Shown here: positions 1,057 through 12,528 of the stretch, piece after piece
How positions within the stretch are numbered: position 1 is the first letter of the stretch
Layout: every line of letters begins with the position of its first letter
Virus record (IMG/VR): IMGVR_UViG_3300030061_003813
Location: 1-34,643 of that record
DNA: 34,643 bases
Reading direction: 5' to 3' (one strand)
DNA from: a virus
Program-made: the position numbers and the translations under genes
The notes under the pieces: model-generated
What the model saw: the letters and a program-made list of their open reading frames with translations, nothing else
Told to the model about the DNA's origin: nothing
Database searches by the model: none

Positions 1057-1119
1057 CTGGGCTGTATGTCTCAATACATTCGTCCTGTACTAGGAACAAC
1101 GAGACTACGTAAGTCCCAG
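1057..1119 (+). promoter_or_regulatory. Element A, copy 1 (long form)
   Basis: Closing stem CTGGG (1057-1061) with CCCAG (1115-1119); the conserved TAAGT lies just before the 3' strand. The insert is the longest of the family and folds further: TGTAT with ATACA, and TCGT/CCT with AGG/ACGA. It lies 36 bases upstream of the ATG at 1156. The same closing stem plus TAAGY recurs seven more times on this strand. Confidence 0.7.
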
Positions 1120-1155
1120 ACAATTACATCTATTCAATTCAACATTCCAAACACT

Positions 1156-1335
1156 ATGTCTCTCATCAAAACCTGGTTACTCGAACAGCAACGTCTTCGT
1201 GACGCAGCTGTTAAAACTGAATACACAGAAGATCAGCTATTTGTTCTTAACGATATTGCTAATGAGCAAGAACAGCTGATGCAAGAACTTATGTCAGAGG
1301 AGGTATCAGGTGATGCCGATTACCACCAAGAATGA
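1156..1335 (+). CDS. Small helical acidic protein (59 aa)
   Basis: Start at ATG 1156 (MSLIKTWLLEQQRLRDAAVK) because an upstream in-frame ATG (1066) sits inside element A. Gln/Glu/Leu-rich with heptad-like spacing, so probably a short coiled coil. The leader is TTCAATTCAACATTCC. No family recognised. Confidence 0.65.
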   Translation: MSLIKTWLLEQQRLRDAAVKTEYTEDQLFVLNDIANEQEQLMQELMSEEVSGDADYHQE

Positions 1336-1401
1336 CACAAACGATGATGTCATCTTGCACATCATTGTTATCAGTTCAATCATCATTACAGAGTTGATCT
1401 C

Positions 1402-1749
1402 ATGTCTCTTTCTCCAGAAACCTACGCCATTGCTCAAGCCCTCACAGGATACGAAAAGTTCAGTGAGGAAGAATACCTTGAGCAGTGGGAAGCAGAAGTT
1501 ACCTACGACAGAGCCAAACCTTGCAACAAGCCGCCGCTCAATGGCAGCATCAGCAAAGACAAGAAAGGCAAACTCTGGTGCTACTGGATCCCAACAAAAG
1601 ACCCGGACAGTCTCGAAGGTTGGTACGAAGTCCCGTGCAAAGAAGACATCGAAGACTACTGCCTTGGATCAGTAGCTTATACACCAGGTGATGACGAGGT
1701 AGAACCAGATCATCCTGATTCCTGGTTAAATCTACTTTGTTTAATCTGA
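1402..1749 (+). CDS. Hypothetical acidic Trp/Tyr-rich protein (115 aa)
   Basis: Begins MSLSPETYAIAQALTGYEKF after the leader GTTGATCTC. The central part (residues 45-75) is Lys/Trp/Tyr-rich and contains WYEVPC; the C-terminal third is very acidic with many Pro. Two other frames are open here but have low-complexity Ser/Lys/Arg translations. No family recognised. The stop is followed 6 bases later by element A copy 2. Confidence 0.75.
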   Translation: MSLSPETYAIAQALTGYEKFSEEEYLEQWEAEVTYDRAKPCNKPPLNGSISKDKKGKLWCYWIPTKDPDSLEGWYEVPCKEDIEDYCLGSVAYTPGDDEVEPDHPDSWLNLLCLI

Positions 1750-1755
1750 TTTAAT

Positions 1756-1785
1756 CCTGGGCAGCTATCATGCGTAAGTCCCAGG
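1756..1785 (+). promoter_or_regulatory. Element A, copy 2
   Basis: Stem CCTGGG (1756-1761) with CCCAGG (1780-1785). Variable inner hairpin, then the conserved TAAGT on the 3' side of the internal loop. It is followed by CTTTTTATTATTT and the ATG at 1813, 27 bases on. The T-run could give this copy some terminator activity, but the other copies lack one. Confidence 0.7.
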
Positions 1786-1812
1786 CTTTTTATTATTTAC
1801 TCAAATTATTTT

Positions 1813-2064
1813 ATGGACACAGTCAAAGATGTTTATGGCGAGTATTACGAAGCTAAAGCTCGTGAGATACCAAGACAATCAAGTCTCAGTCCTGAAGCCA
1901 AAATATTATGGCAACGGATGGAAGACATGGCTTGGTCTGTGACATACTCCAATGGTTCTTCCAAAGATCTTGAAGAAGCTGTTTTAGCTTTATCAGAACA
2001 TCCAGGATGTACATGGAAGGAGAGTACTCTTTGGTACTACCTCCGTCAAATGTACTGGAAATAA
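1813..2064 (+). CDS. Hypothetical protein (83 aa)
   Basis: MDTVKDVYGEYYEAKAREIP start, helical and Trp/Tyr-rich, ending YYLRQMYWK. Second half (AVLALSEHPGCTWKESTLWY) is probably helical. Directly downstream of element A copy 2. No family recognised; amino-acid composition supports a genuine gene. Confidence 0.7.
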   Translation: MDTVKDVYGEYYEAKAREIPRQSSLSPEAKILWQRMEDMAWSVTYSNGSSKDLEEAVLALSEHPGCTWKESTLWYYLRQMYWK

Positions 2065-2095
2065 CCTTCCAAAGTATAAGGAAAACTTATCACCC

Positions 2096-2302
2096 ATGGC
2101 ACAACCTCAACAGTATTTAGTGAAACCAACAACTGGCATTGATCAGTCTATGGTTGAACTACTCGCAGAAGTACTTGAAGTCGATCCGCACCAGGTCATT
2201 GAGACTGCACTGCATGAATGGCTTGAAGCAAACTTCATGCGTATCAACTCACTCCATCGCAACACGCAACAGATTTACACTCAGCTCCATCCTGAATCAT
2301 GA
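2096..2302 (+). CDS. Ribbon-helix-helix-like small protein (68 aa)
   Basis: The segment from about residue 15 to 47 (DQSMVELLAEVLEVDPHQVI then ETALHEWLEANF) matches the helix-turn-helix half of Arc/CopG-type ribbon-helix-helix proteins in length and hydrophobic pattern. If so it would be a small DNA-binding regulator or antitoxin-like protein. Its TGA overlaps the next ATG (ATGA at 2299-2302), indicating translational coupling. The family call is inference. Confidence 0.65.
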   Translation: MAQPQQYLVKPTTGIDQSMVELLAEVLEVDPHQVIETALHEWLEANFMRINSLHRNTQQIYTQLHPES

Positions 2303-2571
2303 CAACTAAATTCACCACACCAAAGATCAATCTCAATGGTACTTCAGCCGAAACACTCTATGAGGAATTCAGTGAAGCAAGAGTAAAACTTACTCAAGCT
2401 TTAAAAGGATTACGAGTTCTTACGGTTCATCCTCGAGACTTCCAGACAATAGCTGATGGTACTTGGATTCAAGCTAAAACTGAATATTACGAAGCTATGA
2501 ATCGTGTTGATGATGCCCTAGATTGGGTTGACGCATGGTTGGTAGCTATCGAAAAACAAATGTCCGCTTGA
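2299..2571 (+). CDS. Hypothetical helical protein (90 aa)
   Basis: Translationally coupled by ATGA to the preceding ribbon-helix-helix-like gene. The chain after residue 15 is helical (SAETLYEEFSEARVKLTQAL) with a second helix pair near the C-terminus (EAMNRVDDALDWVDAWLVAI). No known motif. A partner role with the upstream protein is suggested only by coupling. Confidence 0.7.
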   Translation: MTTKFTTPKINLNGTSAETLYEEFSEARVKLTQALKGLRVLTVHPRDFQTIADGTWIQAKTEYYEAMNRVDDALDWVDAWLVAIEKQMSA

Positions 2572-2599
2572 TCAAACTCATTCAATTTAATTCAAACTC

Positions 2600-2872
2600 A
2601 TGGCTAAGAAACGTAGTGCCATCAACTTTCGCAAGACAATTGGTGGCTTTGACATCACTGAAAATGGTGTACAGTCTTTCGGCAAATCCGTAAAGCTTGG
2701 ACCATTCCAATTCACCTTAAATGCAGGACGCTCCGGTATCCTGGGATCTGTGGCGATCCCCGGAACCGGCGTCAGCAAACGTAGAATCAAACTGTGTGAT
2801 TGGCCAGACCTCAGAACTTCTGATCTACCAGAACACAATCGTAAACCTGACATGTGGTCTGACGACGAATAA
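2600..2872 (+). CDS. DUF4236-like small protein (90 aa)
   Basis: Residues about 8-60 read NFRKTIGGF, then GPFQFTLNAGRSGILGSV, then PGTGVSKRRIK. This resembles the DUF4236 pattern (a beta-hairpin with F-R-K/R, L-G-P, S-G-hydrophobic-G and P-G-T-G-hydrophobic-S), whose function is unknown. Leader is TTCAATTTAATTCAAACTC. The C-terminal 25 residues are acidic and Pro-rich. The family match is from memory. Confidence 0.6.
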   Translation: MAKKRSAINFRKTIGGFDITENGVQSFGKSVKLGPFQFTLNAGRSGILGSVAIPGTGVSKRRIKLCDWPDLRTSDLPEHNRKPDMWSDDE

Positions 2873-2958
2873 CTTCAATTCATTAAGAAATAATAAACCC
2901 CCCTGCACCCCCTGAGGGGCCACCAAGAGTACTTATATACCTTTAAGTAAATACTTTA

Positions 2959-2993
2959 TCTAGGCATTGCTTACCCTGCATGTAAGTCCTAGA
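2959..2993 (+). promoter_or_regulatory. Element A, copy 3 (CTAGG variant)
   Basis: Stem TCTAGG (2959-2964) with CCTAGA (2988-2993). Relative to the CTGGG/CCCAG copies, the middle pair changed G-C to A-T on both strands, a compensatory change. Conserved TAAGT before the 3' strand; inner stem CAT-TGC with GCATG. It lies 27 bases upstream of the ATG at 3021. Confidence 0.7.
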
Positions 2994-3020
2994 CTTCTGT
3001 TGTTCATTCCATTTCATCTC

Positions 3021-3272
3021 ATGACTCAACACAATGATCCACTCATCCATGAAACCATCGAACGGATGGAAGCTTATGGTGGTAGTTTTGCTTCTGCTCT
3101 TGCAGTAGCTTATGCGAAAGCTGATCCAGATAATCAGCAACTCATTATTGACACATGGCCTGAGCTGTTTAAGAAGTATGGTCCTACTGGGATCTTTTCT
3201 TCTCCTCAGCAACGTGTCCATAGCTATGGCTATGAGTTGACCAAACGACTTACCATCCGTCCCTCCAAATAA
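3021..3272 (+). CDS. Hypothetical protein (83 aa)
   Basis: Start at ATG 3021 (MTQHNDPLIHETIERMEAYG), right after the TTTCATCTC leader; an upstream in-frame start at 2967 lies inside element A and encodes an unlikely Leu-rich extension. Helical, then a Pro/Gly region (YGPTGIFSSPQQ) that may be an active loop. No family recognised. It ends 2 bases before the next ATG. Confidence 0.75.
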   Translation: MTQHNDPLIHETIERMEAYGGSFASALAVAYAKADPDNQQLIIDTWPELFKKYGPTGIFSSPQQRVHSYGYELTKRLTIRPSK

Positions 3273-3274
3273 TC

Positions 3275-3556
3275 ATGGCTGTAATCAACATCATTGATCT
3301 TGAGGAGGATCTTGTTACTGATGAATCAATTCATTATGTCGTCACTGCAATGGTTGAAGACATGCGTCTTACCAAGGCTGCAATCTATCACCCAGCAGAT
3401 CTTGCTTCGCCTGAAGAGCATGGCCCTGGTGTTTGCTCAGCAGGGTTTGAAGTTATGTTTGGCGACGATCCTCCACCGACCTTGGGTAGTCCTTTAGATC
3501 TACTTAGCTATGTTCAAGACCTTGATCTTGACTGGCAACTAGACGAAGAAGACTAA
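3275..3556 (+). CDS. Acidic hypothetical protein (93 aa)
   Basis: MAVINIIDLEEDLVTDESIH start; strongly acidic, with a Pro-rich segment (FGDDPPPTLGSP) and an Asp/Leu-rich C-terminus (DLDLDWQLDEED). Two bases separate it from the upstream gene, so they are probably co-transcribed. The acidic, DNA-mimic-like composition is typical of small phage inhibitors, but that is only a guess. Confidence 0.7.
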   Translation: MAVINIIDLEEDLVTDESIHYVVTAMVEDMRLTKAAIYHPADLASPEEHGPGVCSAGFEVMFGDDPPPTLGSPLDLLSYVQDLDLDWQLDEED

Positions 3557-3560
3557 TCTA

Positions 3561-3606
3561 CTAGGCAGCCGAGTAACATTATTTGTTGCGTTAGGCGTAA
3601 GCCCTA
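3561..3606 (+). promoter_or_regulatory. Element A, copy 4, directly before the tRNA
   Basis: TAGG (3562-3565) pairs with CCTA (3603-3606), with TAAGC on the 3' side and an inner stem GCC/GGC plus GTAAC/GTTGC. This copy is 8 bases upstream of the tRNA instead of a CDS, and the nearest start codon (3729) is beyond the tRNA. It is the most diverged copy. Confidence 0.55.
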
Positions 3607-3613
3607 TTTTCTT

Positions 3614-3702
3614 GGGAGCGTGATGGAATTGGTAGACATTGCAGACTTAAAATCTGTTGACCAGTAATGGTCGTGCGGGTTCAAGTCCCGCCGCTCCTAC
3701 CA
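3614..3702 (+). tRNA. tRNA-Leu (anticodon UAA)
   Basis: An 89-base class II tRNA. The 7-bp acceptor stem GGGAGCG/CGCTCCT has the G1-U72 wobble typical of bacterial tRNA-Leu. Anticodon stem GCAGA/TCTGT holds loop CTTAAAA with anticodon TAA at 3648-3650. There is a variable arm (TGACCAGTAATGGTCG region), a T arm GCGGG/CCCGC with TTCAAGT, and an encoded ACCA end. It reads UUA (and UUG), codons common in this AT-rich genome. Such tRNAs are common in cyanophages. Confidence 0.96.
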
Positions 3703-3728
3703 CATTCACTTTCAACTCATTTCTTATC

Positions 3729-4082
3729 ATGTTCGGTGCAATCAAACATCTGATTCCTCAGCCTCATGGTTACATGGATTCAGATCAACGCTACAACGTT
3801 GGCTTGACTTGGATTGACCAAGAAGGCCTCACTGATTTTCACAACCTTCAGATTCAATACGTTCGCAATAACGAGCGTCTTGCTATCGAAAACGGTGAAC
3901 CTCAACCTGATGGCAGTTGGGCCTACAAAGAAACAAACGGTACTGTTCACACAATGAGTGCAGAACGTGTCAATGCTTTCATGGCAAAGACGCAAGAACA
4001 TGCAACAATTATGTGTTCAATGCTCGACAAAATCAACGCAGCATCAGGAGAAACTCTTGACGCTACTGCTTCTGTTGTTTAA
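3729..4082 (+). CDS. Hypothetical protein (117 aa)
   Basis: Start at ATG 3729 (MFGAIKHLIPQPHGYMDSDQ); the frame is open further upstream only because it runs through the tRNA. Mixed alpha/beta with a glycine-rich centre (NGEPQPDGSWAYKETNGTVH) and a helical C-terminus. The leader CTCATTTCTTATC belongs to the recurring start context. No family recognised. Confidence 0.75.
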   Translation: MFGAIKHLIPQPHGYMDSDQRYNVGLTWIDQEGLTDFHNLQIQYVRNNERLAIENGEPQPDGSWAYKETNGTVHTMSAERVNAFMAKTQEHATIMCSMLDKINAASGETLDATASVV

Positions 4083-4120
4083 CCTCTAGCCAGATCGCTT
4101 GGTAACCGATCTGTTCGAGG
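4083..4120 (+). other. Hairpin between stop codon and terminator
   Basis: CAGATCG (4091-4097) pairs with CGATCTG (4107-4113) around a 9-base loop, and CCTC (4083-4086) can pair with GAGG (4117-4120). It lies right after the stop of the 3729 gene and 9 bases before a rho-independent terminator. It could stabilise the mRNA 3' end or form part of a leader; no specific RNA class is recognised. Confidence 0.45.
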
Positions 4121-4129
4121 GGTGTTTGT

Positions 4130-4166
4130 CCCAGTTACTTGTCGAGTAGTAACTGGGATTTTTCTT
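4130..4166 (+). terminator. Rho-independent terminator
   Basis: CCCAGTTACT (4130-4139) pairs perfectly with AGTAACTGGG (4148-4157) around an 8-base loop, followed by ATTTTTCTTT. It closes the transcript carrying the tRNA and the 3729 gene. The next gene starts at 4183. Confidence 0.8.
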
Positions 4167-4182
4167 TGCTTTTCAAATTCTT

Positions 4183-4470
4183 ATGACACGCAGAAAATCT
4201 CAATCCAAATTCAATGTTGGTGATCGTGTTATGCACAAATCAACTGACATAAGTGGATTTAAAAGCCCATTGCCTCCACGTACAAAGCTTGGTGTTATTC
4301 AACAAATTGAATACAAATCAAATGCTAGAGGTGCATTAATGCCTTGGCTCAAAATTAAATGGGATTCTTCTTATCATTCTGAATGGCATATGACAATGCG
4401 TGTTGTTTTGGCTCCAGATCAGGAAACGGTTGATGCTGTTGTACAGAATAAACAAGAGAAAATCAATTGA
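4183..4470 (+). CDS. SH3-like/KOW-type hypothetical protein (95 aa)
   Basis: Basic N-terminus followed by FNVGDRVMHK (residues 10-19) and a later GVIQQIEYK strand, the pattern of small SH3-like barrels of the KOW kind in which a G-D-x-V turn opens the fold. It may bind RNA, DNA or protein. Its stop lies 8 bases before the thyX ATG, so it is likely in the thyX transcript. Fold assignment is inference. Confidence 0.7.
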   Translation: MTRRKSQSKFNVGDRVMHKSTDISGFKSPLPPRTKLGVIQQIEYKSNARGALMPWLKIKWDSSYHSEWHMTMRVVLAPDQETVDAVVQNKQEKIN

Positions 4471-4478
4471 ACTCAGCC

Positions 4479-5141
4479 ATGCTCAAACCACATTGTGTTT
4501 CTTTAGTCTGGCGTACTGAAGAAGCTGAACGAATGATCGTGCGTACTGCTCGTGTCTCTGCGCCAAAAAATGAAAACAACATGGAAACCGGTCCACGGCT
4601 TCTTCGCTATCTCATCAAACAAAATCATTGGTCACCATTTGAGATGGCCAATATGTGTTTAGAGATTCACACTACACGCACTATCAGCCCACAGATACTG
4701 CGACATAGATCTTTCTCATTCCAAGAATTTTCACAACGTTATGCCAACACCAATGAAATTGGTCGTCCTTTAGTTCCTCAACTCCGTTCTCAAGATCCAA
4801 AAAATCGTCAAGATTCTCATGATGATTTACGTGAAAAGCTGGGCAAACCACGCATTGCTGATTATTACAGACGCATAAGCATTCTTTTTGAAGATGCTGA
4901 ACATCTTTATCAAGAGATGATAAGTGATGGTATTGCAAAAGAATGTGCTCGTGCAGTGCTTCCTAATGCTCCAACCAAGATGTACATGAATGGAACTCTC
5001 CGTTCATGGTTACATTACATTGATCTTAGAACAGCTAATGGCACACAACTAGAACATAAAGAAATCGCAGAACAATGCAAAACAATTTTTAAGGAACAAT
5101 TCCCCATTATTTCGGAGGCAATGTGGGACACACTCTCTTAA
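4479..5141 (+). CDS. thyX: Flavin-dependent thymidylate synthase ThyX
   Basis: Makes dTMP from dUMP using methylene-tetrahydrofolate, FAD and NADPH. The ThyX signature R-H-R-x7-S-x-R-Y is at residues 75-88 (RHRSFSFQEFSQRY). Also present are NHWSPFEM (49-56), which corresponds to the folate/FAD-binding H-x-S-P-F-E segment, and the C-terminal LR-TANGTQLEHKEIAEQ dUMP-binding region. 220 aa is normal for the family. I prefer ATG 4479 over the TTG at 4467 that overlaps the upstream stop. It would support phage DNA synthesis in a host poor in dTMP. The end overlaps the next gene by 19 bases. Confidence 0.95.
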   Translation: MLKPHCVSLVWRTEEAERMIVRTARVSAPKNENNMETGPRLLRYLIKQNHWSPFEMANMCLEIHTTRTISPQILRHRSFSFQEFSQRYANTNEIGRPLVPQLRSQDPKNRQDSHDDLREKLGKPRIADYYRRISILFEDAEHLYQEMISDGIAKECARAVLPNAPTKMYMNGTLRSWLHYIDLRTANGTQLEHKEIAEQCKTIFKEQFPIISEAMWDTLS

Positions 5142-5617
5142 ATAAGAATGAACTTCAATTGAAATGTGACTGTTGTGGAAAAATTTTTAAGCGTTCAAAG
5201 TGGTTGCACAAAGCAAACATAGAACGTGGACGCCTTAAAAATTTTTGTTCACGACAATGCATGGGTATTTTTTATCGTAAACCTTTTGTAATGCCAACTA
5301 CAGATCAACTCAAAGCTGCAAGAGAATCCATTATGGAAAAGTGTCCCAATTGTGGGAAGCGTTTCCTAAAAGTTATTGAAAGCAGATTGAATGGTAATGG
5401 TAATCGACGACGACGAAAACAATGTCAGGCTTGTGATTATCGTGTTACAACAATTGAACTCCCTGAAATAGAAGCTAAAAAATATTTAAACAAGAAAGCA
5501 ATTGTATGTTTAAACTGTAAGCATTATCACCAAGAAAATGACCGTTGTGATTTTGATATCCCAGAGTACATGACTCCTGATGCACAAGACTGTAACCTCT
5601 TTGGAAGATGCTCTTGA
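5123..5617 (+). CDS. Triple zinc-module protein with NrdR-like zinc ribbon (164 aa)
   Basis: GTG start at 5123, chosen because GGAGG (5114-5118) lies 4 bases upstream inside thyX. Three zinc modules are visible: (1) residues 15-46, CDCCG then CSRQC, a treble-clef-like finger; (2) about residues 72-110, CPNCG, a central ESRLNGNGNRRRRKQC and CDYRVTTIE, close to the zinc ribbon of NrdR, the repressor of ribonucleotide reductase operons; (3) the C-terminus, CLNCKHYHQENDRCDF. The NrdR ATP-cone is absent. Coupling to thyX suggests a link to deoxynucleotide supply. Probably a nucleic-acid-binding regulator; the exact role is unknown. Confidence 0.8.
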   Translation: MGHTLLNKNELQLKCDCCGKIFKRSKWLHKANIERGRLKNFCSRQCMGIFYRKPFVMPTTDQLKAARESIMEKCPNCGKRFLKVIESRLNGNGNRRRRKQCQACDYRVTTIELPEIEAKKYLNKKAIVCLNCKHYHQENDRCDFDIPEYMTPDAQDCNLFGRCS

Positions 5618-5777
5618 TCTTATCTACAAAGGACAGACCAACGTAGCTGTCATAGCAAAAGAAACAGGCATCTCATTAGAAGAAATGAAACGCCTGTTTG
5701 GTTTGTATGTAAGTCAACGACCAATTGATCCGGGTATCTGGGAAGCTGACGTTGAACTTGGTTGGCCTTGGGTTTAA
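5580..5777 (+). CDS. Helix-turn-helix-like small protein (65 aa)
   Basis: Residues 6-40 (SLEDALDLIYKGQTNVAVIA then KETGISLEEMKRLF) look like a compact helix-turn-helix in which NVAVIAKETGISLEEMKRLF would be the HTH pair. The rest (SQRPIDPGIWEADVELGWPW) is a conserved-looking tail. It overlaps the zinc protein by 38 bases, implying coupling. Resembles small cyanophage proteins of unknown role. Confidence 0.75.
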   Translation: MHKTVTSLEDALDLIYKGQTNVAVIAKETGISLEEMKRLFGLYVSQRPIDPGIWEADVELGWPWV

Positions 5778-5923
5778 ACTACTTCGCCTTTCATACGCAA
5801 TTGATCAAGTTTCTTTTCAAACTCTTCACGTTGCCTACGCAGTCTTTCATTCAGCATCCAAGATGCCATTGGGCTTGTTTGTTCGTACTTGACGCCACGA
5901 TAAGTGAGTGTCTTGTTAGACAT
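5774..5923 (-). CDS. DUF4278-like small protein (49 aa)
   Basis: Start at the ATG complementary to 5921-5923, with a clear GGAGG Shine-Dalgarno 6 bases upstream on the minus strand. The N-terminal MSNKTLTYRGVKYE matches the L-x-Y-R-G-x-x-Y-E signature of DUF4278, a family largely restricted to cyanobacteria and their phages. The remainder is a charged helix (NERLRRQREEFEKKLDQLRM). It is convergent with the 5580 gene, overlapping by 4 bases. A longer frame (to 5980) is unlikely given the Shine-Dalgarno. Confidence 0.75.
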   Translation of the reverse strand: MSNKTLTYRGVKYEQTSPMASWMLNERLRRQREEFEKKLDQLRMKGEVV

Positions 5924-5927
5924 GATG

Positions 5928-5994
5928 TCCTCCGCTAAAACCCAGACCCCGTTCCCTGTCTGGTGAATTGCGCCCCACACTTGGGGTGAACGTT
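5928..5994. other. Structured intergenic region between divergent genes
   Basis: Two hairpins lie between the divergent genes. CCAGAC pairs with GTCTGG around CCCGTTCCCT (about 5951-5972), and CCCCA pairs with TGGGG around CACT (about 5982-5995). The region must hold the promoters for both directions. I could not identify clear promoter hexamers. Confidence 0.35.
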
Positions 5995-6022
5995 CTACTA
6001 TCCTAACCTAAAACAATTTTTC

Positions 6023-6271
6023 ATGCTCCCTGAAAACCAATTTCATTCTGCAACTTCATCAGAATTAGATGAAGCCCAAGCTCGTCGTAGTCGGTTTGAC
6101 AACTGGATCCTTGAACGAAAAAATAAAGCTGGCATTAGGTTGTCTGCTGAATACACACAAGATGAAGCAGCTCAAATTACAGCAGCTGCTAAATGTCTAG
6201 AGCTTCCTATTGAAAAATTTATCAATGATGCTGCAATACATTATGCAAAATTAGTTTTGCGCCATCGTTAA
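6023..6271 (+). CDS. Ribbon-helix-helix-like protein (82 aa)
   Basis: From about residue 36 a strand (AGIRLSAEYT) is followed by two helices (QDEAAQITAAAKCLELPIEK, then FINDAAIHYAKLV), the layout of ribbon-helix-helix proteins of the DUF1778/CopG kind. The N-terminal third is charged and probably flexible. It may bind DNA as a dimer. Inferred from pattern only. Element A follows its stop by 5 bases. Confidence 0.65.
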   Translation: MLPENQFHSATSSELDEAQARRSRFDNWILERKNKAGIRLSAEYTQDEAAQITAAAKCLELPIEKFINDAAIHYAKLVLRHR

Positions 6272-6276
6272 TTAAA

Positions 6277-6316
6277 CTGGGCATCAGTGTGGGGTCACAC
6301 ACTGTGTAAGTCCCAG
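6277..6316 (+). promoter_or_regulatory. Element A, copy 5
   Basis: Stem CTGGG (6277-6281) with CCCAG (6312-6316), TAAGT before the 3' strand, and an extended inner hairpin CAGTGTG with CACACTG. It lies 23 bases upstream of the ATG at 6340 across CCCATCTCATTTCATCTC. TGGGGT in its loop could pair with ATCCCA just downstream (one G-U), a possible pseudoknot peculiar to this copy. Confidence 0.72.
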
Positions 6317-6339
6317 GCTATCCCATCTCATTTCATCTC

Positions 6340-7110
6340 ATGCACACATTAAAGTTTTCAAAAGGCAATGCCAAGCTTGGCAAACGTTTGATCTTTTCTT
6401 TACCAGCTGGATACACTTGTCCTAATGCTGGTCATTGTAAAACATTTGCTGATCGTGCTACAGGGCAAATTCGTGATCTGCCACAATCATCTCATGCTAC
6501 TGGTGAGGAGTACAGATGTTTTGCTGCAATGTCAGAAGCACGCAGTAAACAATGCCGTGATGCACGCTGGCATAACTGGGACGCCATTAAAGAAACAATT
6601 TATGGTGAAGGCGTCCAAGATCCACAAGGTGCATTAGAAGATACAATTGCTTACGGTATTTGGCAACATAATAAAGGCCGTACTAAATATAACCTTTGTC
6701 GCATCCACGAATCAGGTGACTTCTGGTCTGAGCTTTATTTCAATGCTTGGCTTGAAGTTGCTCGTCAACACCCTGACATCAAGTTCTATGCCTACACCAA
6801 ACAACTCACATACTGGCTCACTGCGATTGATCGCATTCCTTCTAACTTCTTTCTCACTGCTTCAGTTGGTGGTAATCTCGATCCTTTGCTCGCCAAGTAC
6901 GCCCATGTATTTAAGCGAATCGCTCATGTAGTTTATACAGAACAAGAAGCTGCTGACCTTAATCTTGAGATTGACCATGATGACAGTCATTGTTTTGGTG
7001 ACAAACCATTTGCATTGTTAGTTCATGGTGTTCAGCGCAAAGGATCGTTAGCTTCTGAAGCACTTTCCAAGCGCAAACGTGAGGGAACCTGGACAGGATA
7101 TTCCAAGTGA
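6340..7110 (+). CDS. GP88-family phage protein (256 aa)
   Basis: Resembles the 'gene product 88' family first seen in mycobacteriophages. Near residues 23-34 is TCPNAGHCKTF (family pattern C-P-x-A-x-x-C), then at about 122-142 LCRIHESGDFWSELYFNAWL (family pattern R-I-H-x-S-G-D-F) and KFYAYTKQL. Cys/His/Asp conservation suggests a metal-dependent enzyme, but no activity is established. The length fits. Preceded by element A copy 5 and closed by a strong terminator, so it is probably a single-gene unit. Confidence 0.85.
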   Translation: MHTLKFSKGNAKLGKRLIFSLPAGYTCPNAGHCKTFADRATGQIRDLPQSSHATGEEYRCFAAMSEARSKQCRDARWHNWDAIKETIYGEGVQDPQGALEDTIAYGIWQHNKGRTKYNLCRIHESGDFWSELYFNAWLEVARQHPDIKFYAYTKQLTYWLTAIDRIPSNFFLTASVGGNLDPLLAKYAHVFKRIAHVVYTEQEAADLNLEIDHDDSHCFGDKPFALLVHGVQRKGSLASEALSKRKREGTWTGYSK

Positions 7111-7126
7111 ATACTTGCATTTTTAG

Positions 7127-7165
7127 ACGGGATATGTATTATTTACATGTCCCGTTTATTTTTTT
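7127..7165 (+). terminator. Rho-independent terminator after the GP88 gene
   Basis: ACGGGA plus ATGTA pairs with TACAT plus TCCCGT (7127-7155) around a 5-base loop, followed by TTTATTTTTTT. It separates the GP88 unit from the DNA polymerase genes. The putative GTG start at 7166 immediately follows the T-run, so that gene would need read-through or another promoter. Confidence 0.85.
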
Positions 7166-7399
7166 GTGTCGTATTTAATTACTACTTATTTAAAAGGAAT
7201 TCCACATGCAATTACTCCTGATACAGAAAAAAATTGTTTCAGTTTAATTCCAATCACAACTGACTCTCAAATTTCAAAAGCTTTTTGTTCACCAACCAAA
7301 ACAGGTGCCGTGAATATACTCAACTGGATTAATGAAAACGATGCAAAACTTGGCAAACAAAATCTTTCCGTTGAGCCTGAAGCCAGATTCTTCTGTTGA
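7166..7399 (+). CDS. Small hypothetical protein before DNA polymerase (77 aa)
   Basis: GTG start at 7166; no ATG is available in frame. Begins MSYLITTYLKGIPHAITPDT, mixed alpha/beta with a helix GAVNILNWINEN. It overlaps the polymerase reading frame by 68 bases if that starts at 7332, so the two are probably coupled. The start right after a terminator T-run is unusual and may indicate a leader peptide or that translation starts elsewhere. Confidence 0.55.
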   Translation: MSYLITTYLKGIPHAITPDTEKNCFSLIPITTDSQISKAFCSPTKTGAVNILNWINENDAKLGKQNLSVEPEARFFC

Positions 7400-9200
7400 A
7401 AAATGGTATGTATTTGATTTAGAAACTAACGGACTTTATGATGATGTTAACGAAATCTTCTGCATCGTTATTCACGATGTCACGCGAAACAAAACTATTA
7501 CTTATAGGCCTGACGCTATTGACAGTGCTATTGAGCATCTCAACAACGCTGATGTACTTATCGGTCATAACATAATTTTTTACGACATTCCTGTCTTACA
7601 AAAATTAAAACCATCTTTTGTTTTAGACAAACAACATGTCATCGACACACTCATTTGCACACGACTCATCTGGCCAAAAGAAAAACTATTTGAGTCAGAT
7701 ACAAATGCATACACACATGTGCCAGGTGGACTCAAAGGGTCGGCTTCACTCAAAGCTTGGGGATATCGACTATCCGACTACAAAATTGACTTTAAAGATT
7801 TCACCTCTTTTTCTGAAGAGATGTTGTCCTACTGTGTACAAGATGTTAACGTTACCTATAAGTTATTCCAACACATCCAAAAACAAAACATTGCTCATTC
7901 CTGTTTGGAACTTGAGCACATTTTTGCCTCGTGCATTGAAAGACAAATCAGATCAGGTTTTCCTTTTGATATTGATGCAGCTCTTACTTTTGTGGATGAA
8001 CTTGAAGATAGAAAAAGAATATTAGAAAATCAATTATGTGAATTATTTCCTCCTATAACTCATGAGGAATGGTTTACACCAAAGGTTAACAATGCAAAAC
8101 GTGGTTATATCAAAGGGCAACCTTTCTGCAAAACACGTACAGAAAAATTCAACCCTGGTTCAAGACAACAAATAGTTGATCGTCTTCATAAAAAATATGG
8201 TTGGATTCCAGAGACTCGTACTGAGAAAGGTAATCCCATTCTTAATGATGATGTCTTAGAAAAACTTCCGTATCCAGAGGCTAAACCTCTGTCAGAATAC
8301 ATGCTTCTTAAAAAAAGATTAGGTCAAATCAAAGATGGAAACAATGCATGGATCAAACTTGTCTCTCCTGACGGTTTCATTCACGGCGACGTGGTTACTA
8401 ATGGTTGTATTACTGGGCGCTGTAGTCACCGGAATCCAAATACAGCTCAAATTCCCGCTGCTTATAGTCCATATGGCAAAGAATGCCGTTCCTTATTCCA
8501 TGCTCCTGACGACTGGATCCTTATTGGTTCTGATGCTAAAGCCTTGGAACTACGTTGTTTGGCTGGGTATTTGGCATTCTGGGATGGCGGAGAATATGGG
8601 CAAATGGTTACTGACGATTCAGTAGATATTCATATATATAACCAAGAAAAGTTTGGTGTTGAAACTAGAGACATAAGCAAGAGACTTCTTTATGCAGTAC
8701 TTTATGGAGCTGGTTTTCTTAAGGCAGGAAGCATTGTAGATCCAAACGAAAAAAATCCAGAAACATTAAAACAACTTGGTAAAAATGCTATTTATTCATT
8801 CATGACTGGTGTGCCAGCTCTTCAAAAATTAAAACAAAAACTAGCCGAAAATTTAATTGCTCGTGGTTATCTTCTTGGTTTAGATCGTCGTCCTTTGTAT
8901 TGTCGATCTGACTTCAAAGCTTTAAATGTTTTACTTCAATCTTGTGGTGCTGTTCTCATGAAACAAGTAGTAATAAATATTCATGATAATTTAAACAAAG
9001 CTGGTTTTATTTATGGTGTTGATTGGCATCAACATGGAATGATTCATGATGAAATCCAGCTTAGTTGTAGGCCTGGAATTCAAAATGACATCATTCAATT
9101 AGTACTAAATGCTTTTCCAGTAGCTGGCAACACATTTAATTTTCAATGTAAGATTGAAGGCGATGCCAAAACCGGATACACCTGGTACGATACACATTGA
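7332..9200 (+). CDS. T7-like family A DNA polymerase with 3'-5' exonuclease (622 aa)
   Basis: Replicative polymerase. The exonuclease has all three motifs: Exo I FDLETNGL (Asp29, Glu31), Exo II GHNIIFYDIP, and Exo III YCVQDVNVTY (Tyr, Asp), so proofreading should work. The polymerase part has GRCSHRNPNTAQIP, motif A SDAKALELRCLAG, motif B RDISKRLLYAVLYGAG and motif C MIHDEIQLSCR, all closest in style to T7 gp5. Motif B has Tyr at the position of T7 Tyr526. 622 aa is a little shorter than T7 gp5 (704). Start ATG 7332 gives 28 residues before Exo I. Element A and the SSB gene follow. Confidence 0.95.
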   Translation: MKTMQNLANKIFPLSLKPDSSVEKWYVFDLETNGLYDDVNEIFCIVIHDVTRNKTITYRPDAIDSAIEHLNNADVLIGHNIIFYDIPVLQKLKPSFVLDKQHVIDTLICTRLIWPKEKLFESDTNAYTHVPGGLKGSASLKAWGYRLSDYKIDFKDFTSFSEEMLSYCVQDVNVTYKLFQHIQKQNIAHSCLELEHIFASCIERQIRSGFPFDIDAALTFVDELEDRKRILENQLCELFPPITHEEWFTPKVNNAKRGYIKGQPFCKTRTEKFNPGSRQQIVDRLHKKYGWIPETRTEKGNPILNDDVLEKLPYPEAKPLSEYMLLKKRLGQIKDGNNAWIKLVSPDGFIHGDVVTNGCITGRCSHRNPNTAQIPAAYSPYGKECRSLFHAPDDWILIGSDAKALELRCLAGYLAFWDGGEYGQMVTDDSVDIHIYNQEKFGVETRDISKRLLYAVLYGAGFLKAGSIVDPNEKNPETLKQLGKNAIYSFMTGVPALQKLKQKLAENLIARGYLLGLDRRPLYCRSDFKALNVLLQSCGAVLMKQVVINIHDNLNKAGFIYGVDWHQHGMIHDEIQLSCRPGIQNDIIQLVLNAFPVAGNTFNFQCKIEGDAKTGYTWYDTH

Positions 9201-9203
9201 TCG

Positions 9204-9231
9204 CTGGGCATTCTTAAGATGTAAGCCCCAG
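9204..9231 (+). promoter_or_regulatory. Element A, copy 6
   Basis: Stem CTGGG (9204-9208) with CCCAG (9227-9231); 3' internal loop TAAGC; inner stem CATT/GATG. It starts 4 bases after the polymerase stop and lies 26 bases before the SSB ATG at 9258. Being right between two replication genes, it could set their relative expression. Confidence 0.72.
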
Positions 9232-9257
9232 GTATTCGATCTCATTTCTAACTAACC

Positions 9258-10175
9258 ATGAATCAAGTTTTTGTTTGCGCTCAAGCAGTAGAAAATCCCA
9301 CGGAAATCTATTTAGATTCTTCTCGGACTGCATTAAAGGTAAAAGTGCAGTTACCTCCTCTTAGTGCTTCCAAGCGACCAACAGAACTTTATTATCACAT
9401 CTATAAAGATCAAAGCCGTTGGCGTTCATTGATCACTTCAGGTACTTGTTTGTTTATTCATGGTGCAAAACTTCAACATGATTTAGATGCACAAGAGCAT
9501 TCTATTCATGGTGGCAACCCAGCCATTGTTGATGATTCTTTTCCCATCTACAACACAGTCCTTCTTACTGGTCGTATGGCAAAACCAGTTGATCAAAATA
9601 ATTCAAAATCATATGTAGTTACTGATCAATATATAATTGCAAACACCAGTATTACCGTAAGCCGTGGTAATCAGCAGGCAGATTTATTTAATCTTTGTGC
9701 AATTAACAAAGCTGATGATCGTTTTAAGTTAGCAGAATTTCTTGCTAATACAGCACCAAAAGGAACAGGTATTACCATTAGAGGACAACTAGTTACTAGT
9801 GGATGGTTTGATCATGACAAGAAACAAGATCGAACCAGGACTAATATTCAGTTACAACAAGTAACATTGGCTCCTAAATCAAATACAACAGCTACAACAA
9901 TTAAGCCTGCAACAACAATCAATAGTGATTCTCAACCTAAGACATTATGGGGTGGACGCACTGCTGAATCAATGGCCGAATCACCGCATCAAGCAGCTAT
10001 TGCTACACCAAAGGGTCAAGTACTTGAATCACAACAAGCAGCTCCTGCAAAACCTATGGCAATTGCAGAACCTTGGGACGTTAGCTCTGCACTTGATGAC
10101 ACATCGCATTTTCATAGTGACCTAAACGTTCCTCAAACATTACCGCCTCTTCCTACTGACAAAGACCCATTCTGA
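9258..10175 (+). CDS. SSB-like single-stranded DNA-binding protein with two OB-like domains (305 aa)
   Basis: Residues about 95-205 have the bacterial SSB OB-fold pattern: YNTVLLTGRMAKP, then SRGNQQADLFNLCA, AEFLANTAPKGTGITIRGQL and RTNIQLQQVTL. The first 90 residues (NQVFVCAQAVENPTEIYLDS and onward) look like a second, diverged OB-like domain. A disordered Thr/Ala/Gln/Pro-rich linker leads to an acidic tip ending DKDPF, like the partner-binding SSB tail D-D-D-I-P-F. It would coat single-stranded DNA and recruit replication or recombination proteins. It lies directly after DNA polymerase. The N-terminal domain assignment is inference. Confidence 0.82.
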   Translation: MNQVFVCAQAVENPTEIYLDSSRTALKVKVQLPPLSASKRPTELYYHIYKDQSRWRSLITSGTCLFIHGAKLQHDLDAQEHSIHGGNPAIVDDSFPIYNTVLLTGRMAKPVDQNNSKSYVVTDQYIIANTSITVSRGNQQADLFNLCAINKADDRFKLAEFLANTAPKGTGITIRGQLVTSGWFDHDKKQDRTRTNIQLQQVTLAPKSNTTATTIKPATTINSDSQPKTLWGGRTAESMAESPHQAAIATPKGQVLESQQAAPAKPMAIAEPWDVSSALDDTSHFHSDLNVPQTLPPLPTDKDPF

Positions 10176-10190
10176 GCTACACTAACCGCA

Positions 10191-10220
10191 TCTGGGCACT
10201 CCTTTGAGATAAGTCCCAGA
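10191..10220 (+). promoter_or_regulatory. Element A, copy 7
   Basis: Stem TCTGGG (10191-10196) with CCCAGA (10215-10220), TAAGT before the 3' strand, inner stem CTC/GAG. It lies 15 bases after the SSB stop and 25 bases before the ATG at 10246. In this copy the leader to the start is not the usual TTTCAT type but contains GTCCGACGGAC, a small palindrome. Confidence 0.7.
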
Positions 10221-10245
10221 TATCCACACTAGTCCGACGGACATT

Positions 10246-11364
10246 ATGACACCCGCAAAAGCAGCAGACAAATCCATTGCGATGAGTCTGTTTCCTGAAA
10301 CATCTTCAATTCAAATTCAAAAAGCTTCAAAGCCACGTTCACTTGATTCTTTTCTACATCTCACACAACCAGAATTTGTAGGAGCTGCTCCAACTCCAGG
10401 GCAAATCATTGCACTCAACAAACCAAACGACCGTAATCATTCTCGTGATGCAGGTGGTTTGTTTATTAAGCAAGAAGATCTAATTAAGTGTGCATGGAAA
10501 GCTTCTGCAGATGATCTTGAGCCTGGTTCATTCATTCAACCTTACAATCAAAAGTTTGGTGGTAATGATAAACCAAATGCAGGAATTCTTTTTACTAAAC
10601 CAAGATTTCAAATTGTATTTGAAACCGCTGGTCTACTTGAAAAGAATGTAGTAGATGAAAAAACTGGTGCTAACAAAGCAGTTATCATTGGTTCATTTAA
10701 TCCTGCAGATAATCAATCTGATCCAGGTAGAGTCAATATGCTGTGGGATCTTTACAACGAGAATAAAAAAGATCACACCATTCGTACTTGGTACTATGTG
10801 TATTTCATGAGTGGTTATGGTCAACGTTGCCATGATCTTCCTTTGATTCTTAGTATCAAAGGTGCAGTGGGTGCATCTTTCCGTGATCAGTTAAAAGCAT
10901 TCAGAGATGACGTTAGCTCTGCACTTGCAGCTGCTACGAAAACTCCGAAGCGTCCTGCTAACTATGACGCATTTGCTCAATACATTTTCCAACCTCACCT
11001 TGAGTTGAAAGATGTAGGTCAGGGTAACAATCAGTCAACAGCAGTTACTGCTTTTGATTATGAACGTCCTCTGTATGACCAAGGACAAGAAGCCGCTAAG
11101 GTTTCTCTTGATAGTCATATTATTCCTGACGATCTAATGAAACGTACCAAAGAAGAACGTCAAGATGAGTATGCAATTGGAATGATGAGTCGTTACACAG
11201 ACGGCAATAGTTTTATCAACATTGCAGATGGTGTACAGATTACACCTCTGGGAATCATGCCTCCCATGATGCCTGAATCTTTTAATAATGCTTTAGAAAG
11301 TTCTATCCCAGACAAGATGCTTGCACCTGTTCGGGATTCACATGGAGCTGACGCCAAGTTCTGA
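10246..11364 (+). CDS. Conserved-type replication-region protein, function unknown (372 aa)
   Basis: Soluble, no catalytic motif recognised. The N-terminal 40 residues are Ser/Lys-rich and probably flexible. The core has EPGSFIQPYNQKFG and KPRFQIVFETAGLL, and a central segment (TWYYVYFMSGYGQRCHDLPL, then IKGAVGASFRDQLKAF) that vaguely recalls the cyanobacterial DUF5895 type. Its place behind polymerase and SSB and ahead of the SWIM and Gp157-like genes suggests a DNA replication or recombination accessory. Its 3' end overlaps a minus-strand gene by 27 bases. The DUF5895 similarity is from memory and weak. Confidence 0.8.
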   Translation: MTPAKAADKSIAMSLFPETSSIQIQKASKPRSLDSFLHLTQPEFVGAAPTPGQIIALNKPNDRNHSRDAGGLFIKQEDLIKCAWKASADDLEPGSFIQPYNQKFGGNDKPNAGILFTKPRFQIVFETAGLLEKNVVDEKTGANKAVIIGSFNPADNQSDPGRVNMLWDLYNENKKDHTIRTWYYVYFMSGYGQRCHDLPLILSIKGAVGASFRDQLKAFRDDVSSALAAATKTPKRPANYDAFAQYIFQPHLELKDVGQGNNQSTAVTAFDYERPLYDQGQEAAKVSLDSHIIPDDLMKRTKEERQDEYAIGMMSRYTDGNSFINIADGVQITPLGIMPPMMPESFNNALESSIPDKMLAPVRDSHGADAKF

Positions 11365-11544
11365 TTCCATACGGTCTAGTGAATCTTTTACTAGACCTTT
11401 AATTACACACTGACGGGTTGCGGCTAGCTTGACAAGCATGGTCGCAATCTGTTTTAATTCATCCATTGAGCTACAATCTTCGATGTAACGGGTCATCTTG
11501 ACCTTCCAGAATTCTTCTTCTGGACTCGAATCAAAACTCAACAT
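11338..11544 (-). CDS. Small helical hypothetical protein (68 aa)
   Basis: Only minus-strand gene in this stretch; its end overlaps the convergent 10246 gene by 27 bases. MLSFDSSPEEEFWKVKMTRY is followed by helices (SMDELKQIATMLVKLAATRQ, then CVIKGLVKDSLDRMESEL). The even mix of charged and hydrophobic residues argues against chance. It resembles small helical proteins of cyanobacteria and their phages, with no known role. No Shine-Dalgarno is visible. Confidence 0.65.
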   Translation of the reverse strand: MLSFDSSPEEEFWKVKMTRYIEDCSSMDELKQIATMLVKLAATRQCVIKGLVKDSLDRMESELGVSSM

Positions 11545-11574
11545 TTATTTAAATCAATTCATTTCATTCTAATC

Positions 11575-12507
11575 ATGACTACAGTAATTGAACAACTTAA
11601 TTCAGGCCAAAGATTAATCTATTCGTATTCAAATATACGAAGAGCTTTCATTGATTTTGATGATACAGATATATCAGGTATGTATCTAAACGATGATGAC
11701 CTTGTTGTTGTTTACAACGATGGTGCAGAAAAATTATTTGATAAACGTCCTATTAAAGAAGCATTCAAAGATTTTCGTTCTCGTTGTCCTGACTTCTTTT
11801 CTTATCTTGGACCTGATTTAAGAGGTCCTAGTTTTTGGCGTAACAATTGTTATGTCTTATACAAAGGTTGGAACTATCAATTCCAAGGGTCATACAAATT
11901 ACCTCAAGCAATTATGCAGCAACGTTGGGGTGACAAACTTCAATTAATTGAAAATGAAGAAGGTATAAAAGCTTTCTTGGCTAATCCAGATTATGGTTTT
12001 GGTTATTTGGTTGCACCTGATGGTGTTGTGTTGCCAGCTCCTCCTTTGTCTTTAGATGATTCAGATGAAATAGCACAAGAGCCAGATCTATCTCCTTACT
12101 GTTCATGTGGTTCTTTTCTACAACAAAAACAATCACTTGAAGAAATACAAAAAGAAATACCTGGTTATGAACCAACTTGTAAACATTTGACTTGGATTAA
12201 TCGCTACCGAGAGTTTTTATCTAAACGTTCAGCATTGCTTAGTAATAGTTCAGGCATTGTTGAAAAAGCTACTGCTTGGTCTTATGCACCACCAGCAGAA
12301 GGTGAAAGTTTTGGACAGTTTCAGATTTTATATACAACATCTGGCAAAATGGCTCCAATTAACAAATGGAAAATCTATAAGAAAGATATGAAGTATTGCC
12401 AGCATGATGCGTGGAGTCTCTTTGACGCTATGCTTGAAAATGAATTTGTACCATTTCCAGCTCCAGCTTTAACTCAACTCAAACCTTTCTTTGACAAGAA
12501 AAACTAG
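11575..12507 (+). CDS. SWIM zinc-finger protein (310 aa)
   Basis: Near residues 177-210 the motif C-x-C (YCSCGSF) followed 30 residues later by C-x-H (PTCKHL) fits the SWIM zinc finger (C-x-C-x(n)-C-x-H), a DNA- or protein-binding module found in SWI2/SNF2 ATPases and in recombination mediators of the Shu type. No ATPase motif is present. The N-terminal region has beta-rich repeats (FDDTDISGMYLNDDDLVVVY). Its place in the replication/recombination block suggests a DNA-binding accessory. The stop codon TAG is part of element A copy 8. Confidence 0.78.
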   Translation: MTTVIEQLNSGQRLIYSYSNIRRAFIDFDDTDISGMYLNDDDLVVVYNDGAEKLFDKRPIKEAFKDFRSRCPDFFSYLGPDLRGPSFWRNNCYVLYKGWNYQFQGSYKLPQAIMQQRWGDKLQLIENEEGIKAFLANPDYGFGYLVAPDGVVLPAPPLSLDDSDEIAQEPDLSPYCSCGSFLQQKQSLEEIQKEIPGYEPTCKHLTWINRYREFLSKRSALLSNSSGIVEKATAWSYAPPAEGESFGQFQILYTTSGKMAPINKWKIYKKDMKYCQHDAWSLFDAMLENEFVPFPAPALTQLKPFFDKKN

Positions 12508-12528
12508 GCAGCACTGCGTAAGTCCTAG
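12504..12528 (+). promoter_or_regulatory. Element A, copy 8 (shortest; CTAGG variant)
   Basis: Stem CTAGG (12504-12508) with CCTAG (12524-12528), carrying the same compensatory A-T pair as copy 3; inner stem CAG/CTG; TAAGT before the 3' strand. It contains the stop codon of the SWIM gene, so ribosomes finishing that gene would unfold it. It lies 27 bases upstream of the ATG at 12556, which opens a 36-codon ORF. Confidence 0.72.

Follow-up and report, generated by a model that had tools for sequence, protein, structure and literature searches.

Polycistronic messenger RNAs of phage T7 are cut by RNase III at intercistronic hairpins with an internal loop on the 3' side, and the cuts leave structured 3' ends. 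Repeats placed before start codons, of unknown function, have been described in Cluster K mycobacteriophages under the names SAS and ESAS (PMC3203893). Structured RNAs are also found in the gene leaders of cyanophages, e.g. the manA, wcaG and PhotoRC-II motifs (PMC2864571), and glutamine riboswitches occur in these phages as well (PMC9964418). Here we analyse a repeated hairpin, Element A, in the first 34,643 bases (the window) of the 58,154-base IMG/VR record IMGVR_UViG_3300030061_003813. A sequence-only reading of this stretch had described eight copies with compensatory base changes in gene leaders, and likened them to a metabolite-sensing RNA. We find that Element A is a well-supported family of structured RNAs. 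We tentatively propose that it is a phage-specific cis-acting boundary element, acting by processing or by stopping nucleases, that sets the 5' boundary of the downstream RNAs.

SAS/ESAS is the closest described analogue of Element A. Both occur in many copies in one part of the genome, before the starts of non-structural genes, and both consist of inverted repeats with a variable spacer that are uncommon in host genomes (PMC3203893). However, SAS is a linear sequence of 13 bp, the arms of ESAS are about 17 bp long, and neither forms a covarying bulged hairpin. They are not described before tRNAs and are essentially restricted to one phage cluster (PMC3203893). The 13-bp SAS repeat GGGATAGGAGCCC is absent from the leaders carrying Element A in the window. 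The manA, wcaG and PhotoRC-II motifs differ from Element A in being linked to metabolic or photosynthesis genes (PMC2864571), and their Rfam models do not match it. Like T7-type RNase III sites, Element A lies between cistrons of co-directional blocks, as judged by the same-strand stops upstream of it. Yet the T7 helices are longer and lack the UAAG/CTNGG consensus, and cleavage of Element A is a proposal. The T-loops of twister-sister and cobalamin RNAs have a similar GYAAGU strand; the Rfam scan, to which this comparison was confined, gave no match to their models in the window. More generally, none of the 4227 families of Rfam 15 matched the copies tested, save for a chance match of lncRNA type overlapping copy 5 (E 9, far under its gathering score). 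Nor did we find a description of Element A in the open-licence literature, by literal sequence or by motif type.

The consensus of 80 distinct, loop-trimmed copies reads CTNGG-C-A-N-helix 2-G-UAAGN-CCNAG. It folds into helix 1 (5 bp), a bulge of 5 nt on the 3' side (UAAGN), one C-G pair, a bulge of 1 nt on the 5' side and a variable helix 2. Since the sampling demanded pairing in helix 1, the percentage of paired copies is biased for this helix, but the range of paired types is not: pair 3 is G-C, A-U or U-A and pair 1 is C-G, A-U or U-A. Pairing in helix 2 was not demanded. Its pairs 9-16 and 10-15 are nevertheless formed in 79/80 and 69/80 copies, both partners have changed in 32/80 and 31/80, and no shuffle equalled the covariation score of this helix. 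At position 7, most copies have an unpaired A ahead of a G-C, C-G or A-U pair; the alternative is an A-U pair with a bulged U after it. Hence, the one-base bulge on the 5' side is retained in both alternatives. The inner segment ranges from 10 to 48 nt, and frequent loops are GCAA, GTAA, GAAA, GCGA and TTCG. Covariation is also visible at single sites. For example, the leader of the DUF5895 gene has CTGGG/CCCAG in the window, whereas the related loci L008 and L010 have CTAGG/CCTAG and a helix 2 that differs from that of the window.

A structural descriptor that called for helix 1, GGC, UAAGNCC and four or more helix-2 pairs had 223 matches in the 1.43 Mb of loci fetched, against 0 in their reversed copies. 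Many of these loci had been chosen by a related pattern, so that the 223 copies do not measure prevalence, but the zero of the reversed control is fair. Together with the paired types of helix 1 and the covariation of helix 2, these counts bear out the prediction of an RNA element with compensatory changes that is conserved in relatives. The sequence flanking Element A is not conserved (199 flanks), and we saw no shared promoter or operator there. The element is therefore self-contained, rather than a promoter or a DNA operator that includes its flanks. A repeat acting at the DNA level, as an operator or a site of recombination or replication, would explain the inverted repeat arms of many copies. 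It is barely credible given the asymmetric UAAG, the freely covarying helix 2, the variable length of the inner segment and the sense orientation relative to the next gene. The flanks are weakly biased towards A at positions -5 to -3 and towards T at +3/+4. These Ts were considered in the light of RNase E sites, but this reading was dropped, as it fails for the copies before tRNAs.

All eight copies reported on the + strand of the window were recovered, with concordant results from a regular-expression search and a covariance model (Table 1). Where the ends given by the sequence-only reading differ by one base, its version adds one flanking pair. Neither method found a further copy in the window or in the 23.5 kb that follow it in the record, and the pattern read backwards had 0 matches in the record. 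As described, the third pair switches from G-C to A-T in three copies (2960, 3561 and 12504), and seven copies are followed by an ATG start codon after 23-36 nt; the eighth precedes tRNA-Leu(UAA). The upstream stop codon lies mostly 3-16 nt before the element, with the exceptions of copy 8, which contains the stop, and copy 3 (87 nt). Copy 1 has orthologues in L008, L098 and L121, and its region reads through as coding in relatives. Its loop and the bases up to the start codon (window 1066-1155) can be read in frame as an extension of the N terminus (MSQYIRPVLGTTRLRKSQ...), and L008 and L121 seem to conserve its codons. An AT-rich stretch, CTTATATACCTTTAAGTAAATACTT (window 2900-2960), immediately precedes copy 3. 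L008 and L010 conserve this stretch, and L098 and L121 conserve part of it. It is possibly a phage promoter.

Table 1. Positions of Element A and of other RNA features, in the window unless a locus (L number) is given.
Feature	Position	Strand	Details
Element A copy 1	1057..1119	+	long loop with in-frame ATG at 1066; 36 nt before ATG 1156
Element A copy 2	1757..1784	+	37.9 bits; 7 nt past stop; 28 nt before ATG 1813
Element A copy 3	2960..2992	+	CTAGG/CCTAG; 31.8 bits; 28 nt before ATG 3021
Element A copy 4	3561..3607	+	CTAGG/CCTAT, outermost pair gone; 16.9 bits; 6 nt before tRNA-Leu(UAA)
tRNA-Leu(UAA)	3614..3702	+	immediately behind copy 4
Element A copy 5	6277..6316	+	34.1 bits; 23 nt before GP88 gene (6340)
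Element A copy 6	9204..9231	+	40.2 bits; 3 nt past DNA polymerase stop; 26 nt before SSB gene (9258)
Element A copy 7	10192..10219	+	38.3 bits; 26 nt before DUF5895 gene (10246)
Element A copy 8	12504..12528	+	CTAGG/CCTAG; 31.5 bits; overlaps upstream stop TAG; 27 nt before ATG 12556
Element C sites	L011 33603 and 30514	minus	before phage genes
Element C sites	L171 872-898; L046, L014, L054 and many more		before phage genes
Conserved RNA of ~200 nt	L083 around 3280-3478; L124 around 390-586; L087; L065		no Rfam match

Element A is a feature of phages. A scan of IMG/VR with the pattern CTGGGCAN{6,36}GTAAGTCCCAG gave at least 119 stretches, and the matches in viral sequence include some that are probably due to chance, as judged by eye (L043, L100, L118 and L085/L110/L122). 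A stricter pattern likewise matched viral contigs in at least 119 stretches, and had 0 matches in cellular genomes (84,980 species, 257 Gb). The carriers belong to several phage groups without gene content in common; the hosts given here for uncultured contigs are those suggested by similarity. Many S-EIV1-like phages have 4-10 copies within one co-directional block. The S-CBWM1-like cyanomyoviruses have one or two, one of which lies 47-51 nt before the major capsid gene. The earlier statement that no copy lies near structural genes is thus true of the window but not in general. Further carriers are T4-like cyanomyoviruses, podovirus-like contigs and contigs with a terminase resembling that of phages of Firmicutes. 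A BLAST search with the bare element against isolated phages returned nothing, because the inner helix is too variable, and isolates carrying it were located via gene synteny. They are S-EIV1 (KJ410740; 41475-41439 and 40784-40729, minus strand) and Bellamy (MF351863; about 72923-72968). No strict copy was found in S-LBS1, S-CBWM1, S-CBS1 or S-CBS3.

The placement of the copies is very regular. An open reading frame (ORF) starting with ATG follows in 208/256 copies, at a distance with quartiles of 27, 30 and 32 nt. The stop of a same-strand upstream ORF lies within 80 nt in 215/256 copies, at a median distance of 7 nt. In addition, 20 of the 256 copies lie 3-5 nt before a tRNA gene, which is tRNA-Leu(UAA) in 19/20 cases. 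What stays constant is how far Element A lies from the point where the downstream RNA functionally starts: on mRNAs the gap leaves room for ribosome loading, and on tRNAs it is a few nucleotides. No common theme links the genes that follow, which are those for SSB, GP88, DUF5895, a tRNA and capsid, and small ORFs. In S-EIV1-like phages, the copies before tRNA-Leu overlap the end of the upstream reading frame. That Element A is kept there despite the overlap counts in favour of a boundary role. At this same genomic site, several loci (L023, L044, L025, L034 and others) have differing tRNA-Leu(UAA) genes behind the same Element A, with the upstream ORF stopping inside the tRNA gene, as if the tRNA had been replaced behind the element.

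Such regularity could also arise if Elements A and C (a pseudoknot described below) were translational operators, i.e. if RNA-binding proteins of the phage or host bound them and controlled downstream translation as an RNA regulon. Conserved bulges in small hairpins are typical of protein-binding sites, and Element A has one. Seven of the eight copies in the window, and most others, lie at a fixed distance before a start codon, and several copies can occupy a single block of one genome. This explanation deserves weight, but we think it rather unlikely. The copies 3-6 nt before tRNA genes have no translation following them, the hairpin stops 22-32 nt short of the ATG, close to where a ribosome footprint ends, and orthologous genes exchange Element A for a different structure. 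We also searched for a possible phage-encoded partner by all-against-all BLASTP of eight genomes or large contigs bearing Element A together with S-EIV1, and compared them with four cyanophages that have no strict match. No protein family was common to all groups bearing Element A in this search, which may overlook fast-evolving proteins. Hence, a host enzyme is a likelier candidate for the acting factor than a protein of the phage.

The composition of the leaders points to another explanation of the spacing. Between Element A and the ATG, a sequence resembling a Shine-Dalgarno (SD) motif is present in 2/172 leaders, and G amounts to 6% of the bases. A hairpin just outside the ribosome might keep such an unstructured, SD-less leader accessible, and thereby favour ribosome loading. 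The tight spacing to the ATG, seen with both Elements A and C, would agree with this. It would not explain the copies before tRNAs, nor those of S-CBWM1-like phages, which lie further away from a capsid gene with an SD-like GGAG in its leader. We consider this function unlikely.

Comparison of orthologous leaders revealed a second structure, Element C, at the sites of Element A. It is an H-type pseudoknot, GTCCT-S2-AT-GAC-N-TTAAACT-S2', with two covarying stems and a constant TTAAACT. When copies were sampled on the unpaired letters alone, stem 1 was fully paired in 45/52 and stem 2 in 38/52 non-redundant copies. The geometry is that of Element A, with a median of 23 nt to the ATG and 6 nt past the stop. 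The leader of the SSB gene has Element A in the window, L008, L010, L113 and L056, and Element C in S-EIV1, L108, L046, L140, L115 and L009. Elements A and C likewise replace one another in the leaders of the GP88 and DUF5895 genes. In T4-like cyanophages, the leader of a small ORF has Element A in Bellamy and the contigs of group C, and Element C in S-SCSM1 (MK867354, about 1871-1897). Plain hairpins take the place of Element A at some orthologous sites. Viral stretches with Element C number at least 120. It was also seen in 23 cellular contigs (L325-L347), several of them from Omnitrophota and Firmicutes; some of the 23 may in fact derive from prophages or phages. The loci carrying it gave no Rfam match for this structure.

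In both Elements A and C, three parts are enclosed by the outer helix: the CA/AU step, the inner helix and a 3' strand rich in A (GUAAGU or UUAAACU). The inner helix is local in A and formed with an upstream strand in C. They might be two topological versions of one phage RNA device that sets RNA boundaries by halting or directing nucleases. It would be a phage counterpart of exoribonuclease-resistant RNAs, spread across phages of cyanobacteria and Firmicutes. We offer this as a conjecture that is unlikely to hold.

The exchange bears on the nature of the element. Its replacement by a pseudoknot, terminators and hairpins at orthologous sites makes a gene-specific metabolite riboswitch unlikely. 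The sequence-only reading had suggested membership in the Downstream-peptide (glutamine-II) class, which resembles Element A as a small RNA found in leaders of short ORFs in a cyanophage context, but has another fold and sequence. In a Rfam scan with E up to 10, no copy matched this model (RF01704) or the glnA model (RF01739), nor did any other riboswitch model match one. A metabolite sensor of glutamine-II type or of a new class, whose ligand binding is hypothetical, would account for the compact shape, the highly conserved unpaired nucleotides and the location in leaders. Glutamine riboswitches are moreover known from cyanophages (PMC9964418), and one is present in this window. We nevertheless regard such a sensor as highly improbable, since up to ten copies per phage precede unrelated genes, without a metabolic theme, and a tRNA, and no expression platform is seen. 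The genuine Glutamine-II riboswitch is the sole RF01704 match in the window (5995-5941, minus strand; 49.1 bits, E 3.7e-9). It precedes a DUF4278-like ORF of 49 aa (5923-5774, minus strand) that scores below the Pfam cut-off.

Terminators are a further replacement. At the tRNA-Leu site, hairpins followed by a T-run replace Element A in L113 and L070, and the element often lies just past a stop codon, as a transcription terminator or attenuator might. However, no T-run follows Element A, and 0/8 copies were called as terminators on their own strand. We therefore rejected its identity as an intrinsic terminator, and a role in termination or attenuation is very unlikely. Terminator-like sites are found elsewhere in the window, at 4128-4159, 7124-7158 and 11373-11397.

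We favour a boundary role on RNA over a translational operator or a ligand sensor because of the constant distance to the functional start, the exchange with other compact structures, the lack of a common phage protein and the copies before tRNAs. On this reading, Element A would mark the start of each viral RNA. It would be placed at boundaries inside polycistronic phage transcripts and, once transcribed, its fold would be the boundary: a nuclease would cut at the fold or halt against it. The downstream mRNA or tRNA would thereby gain a defined 5' end and a short open leader, and the upstream message would retain or acquire a structured 3' end. The conserved UAAG bulge could be recognised by a processing factor, probably a host enzyme rather than a phage protein, or confer resistance on the fold. 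This scheme rests on sequence comparison, from which we infer that a nuclease takes part, what kind of enzyme it might be and on which side it would act; RNA ends and cleavage are predicted.

Several observations weigh against such a boundary. Single-sequence folding is weak, and four of the eight copies in the window (2960, 9204, 10192 and 12504) prefer to pair the inner segment with the UAAG strand; the proposed fold rests on comparative evidence instead. A classical RNase III substrate would have longer helices. Copy 3, far past the preceding stop and behind the AT-rich stretch, need not be intercistronic; it fits a role at the 5' end better than one at the 3' end of the upstream gene. Finally, the strict conservation of UAAG exceeds the needs of a plain roadblock. 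Being nearly invariant, it suggests specific recognition, which keeps the RNA-binding-protein explanation alive.

Whatever its function, Element A is an abundant family of structured phage RNAs with a nearly invariant consensus and no Rfam model, whose strict pattern was not found in cellular genomes. Its exchange with Element C at orthologous boundaries in two phage lineages amounts to a natural complementation experiment, in which two folds would serve one function. If that function lies in processing or in stopping nucleases, Element A would reveal the way in which streamlined phages split long transcripts into mRNAs and tRNAs, and would serve cyanobacterial synthetic biology as a compact insulator part. 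Direct testing is feasible with the isolates S-EIV1 and Bellamy.

Other conserved structures were seen in these phages. Element B, a hairpin with GGGGGCTGCGCATCCNNNNNACGCAGA before start codons, lies at about 150-182 and 647-679 in the window. It is also present in L008, L014, L018, L034, L050, L098 and L120, is widespread in S-EIV1-like phages, and has the CTGNGCATCC start in common with Element A. In phages with a Firmicutes-type terminase, the conserved RNA of about 200 nt listed in Table 1 lies between two genes of the structural region, and Element A is its last hairpin.

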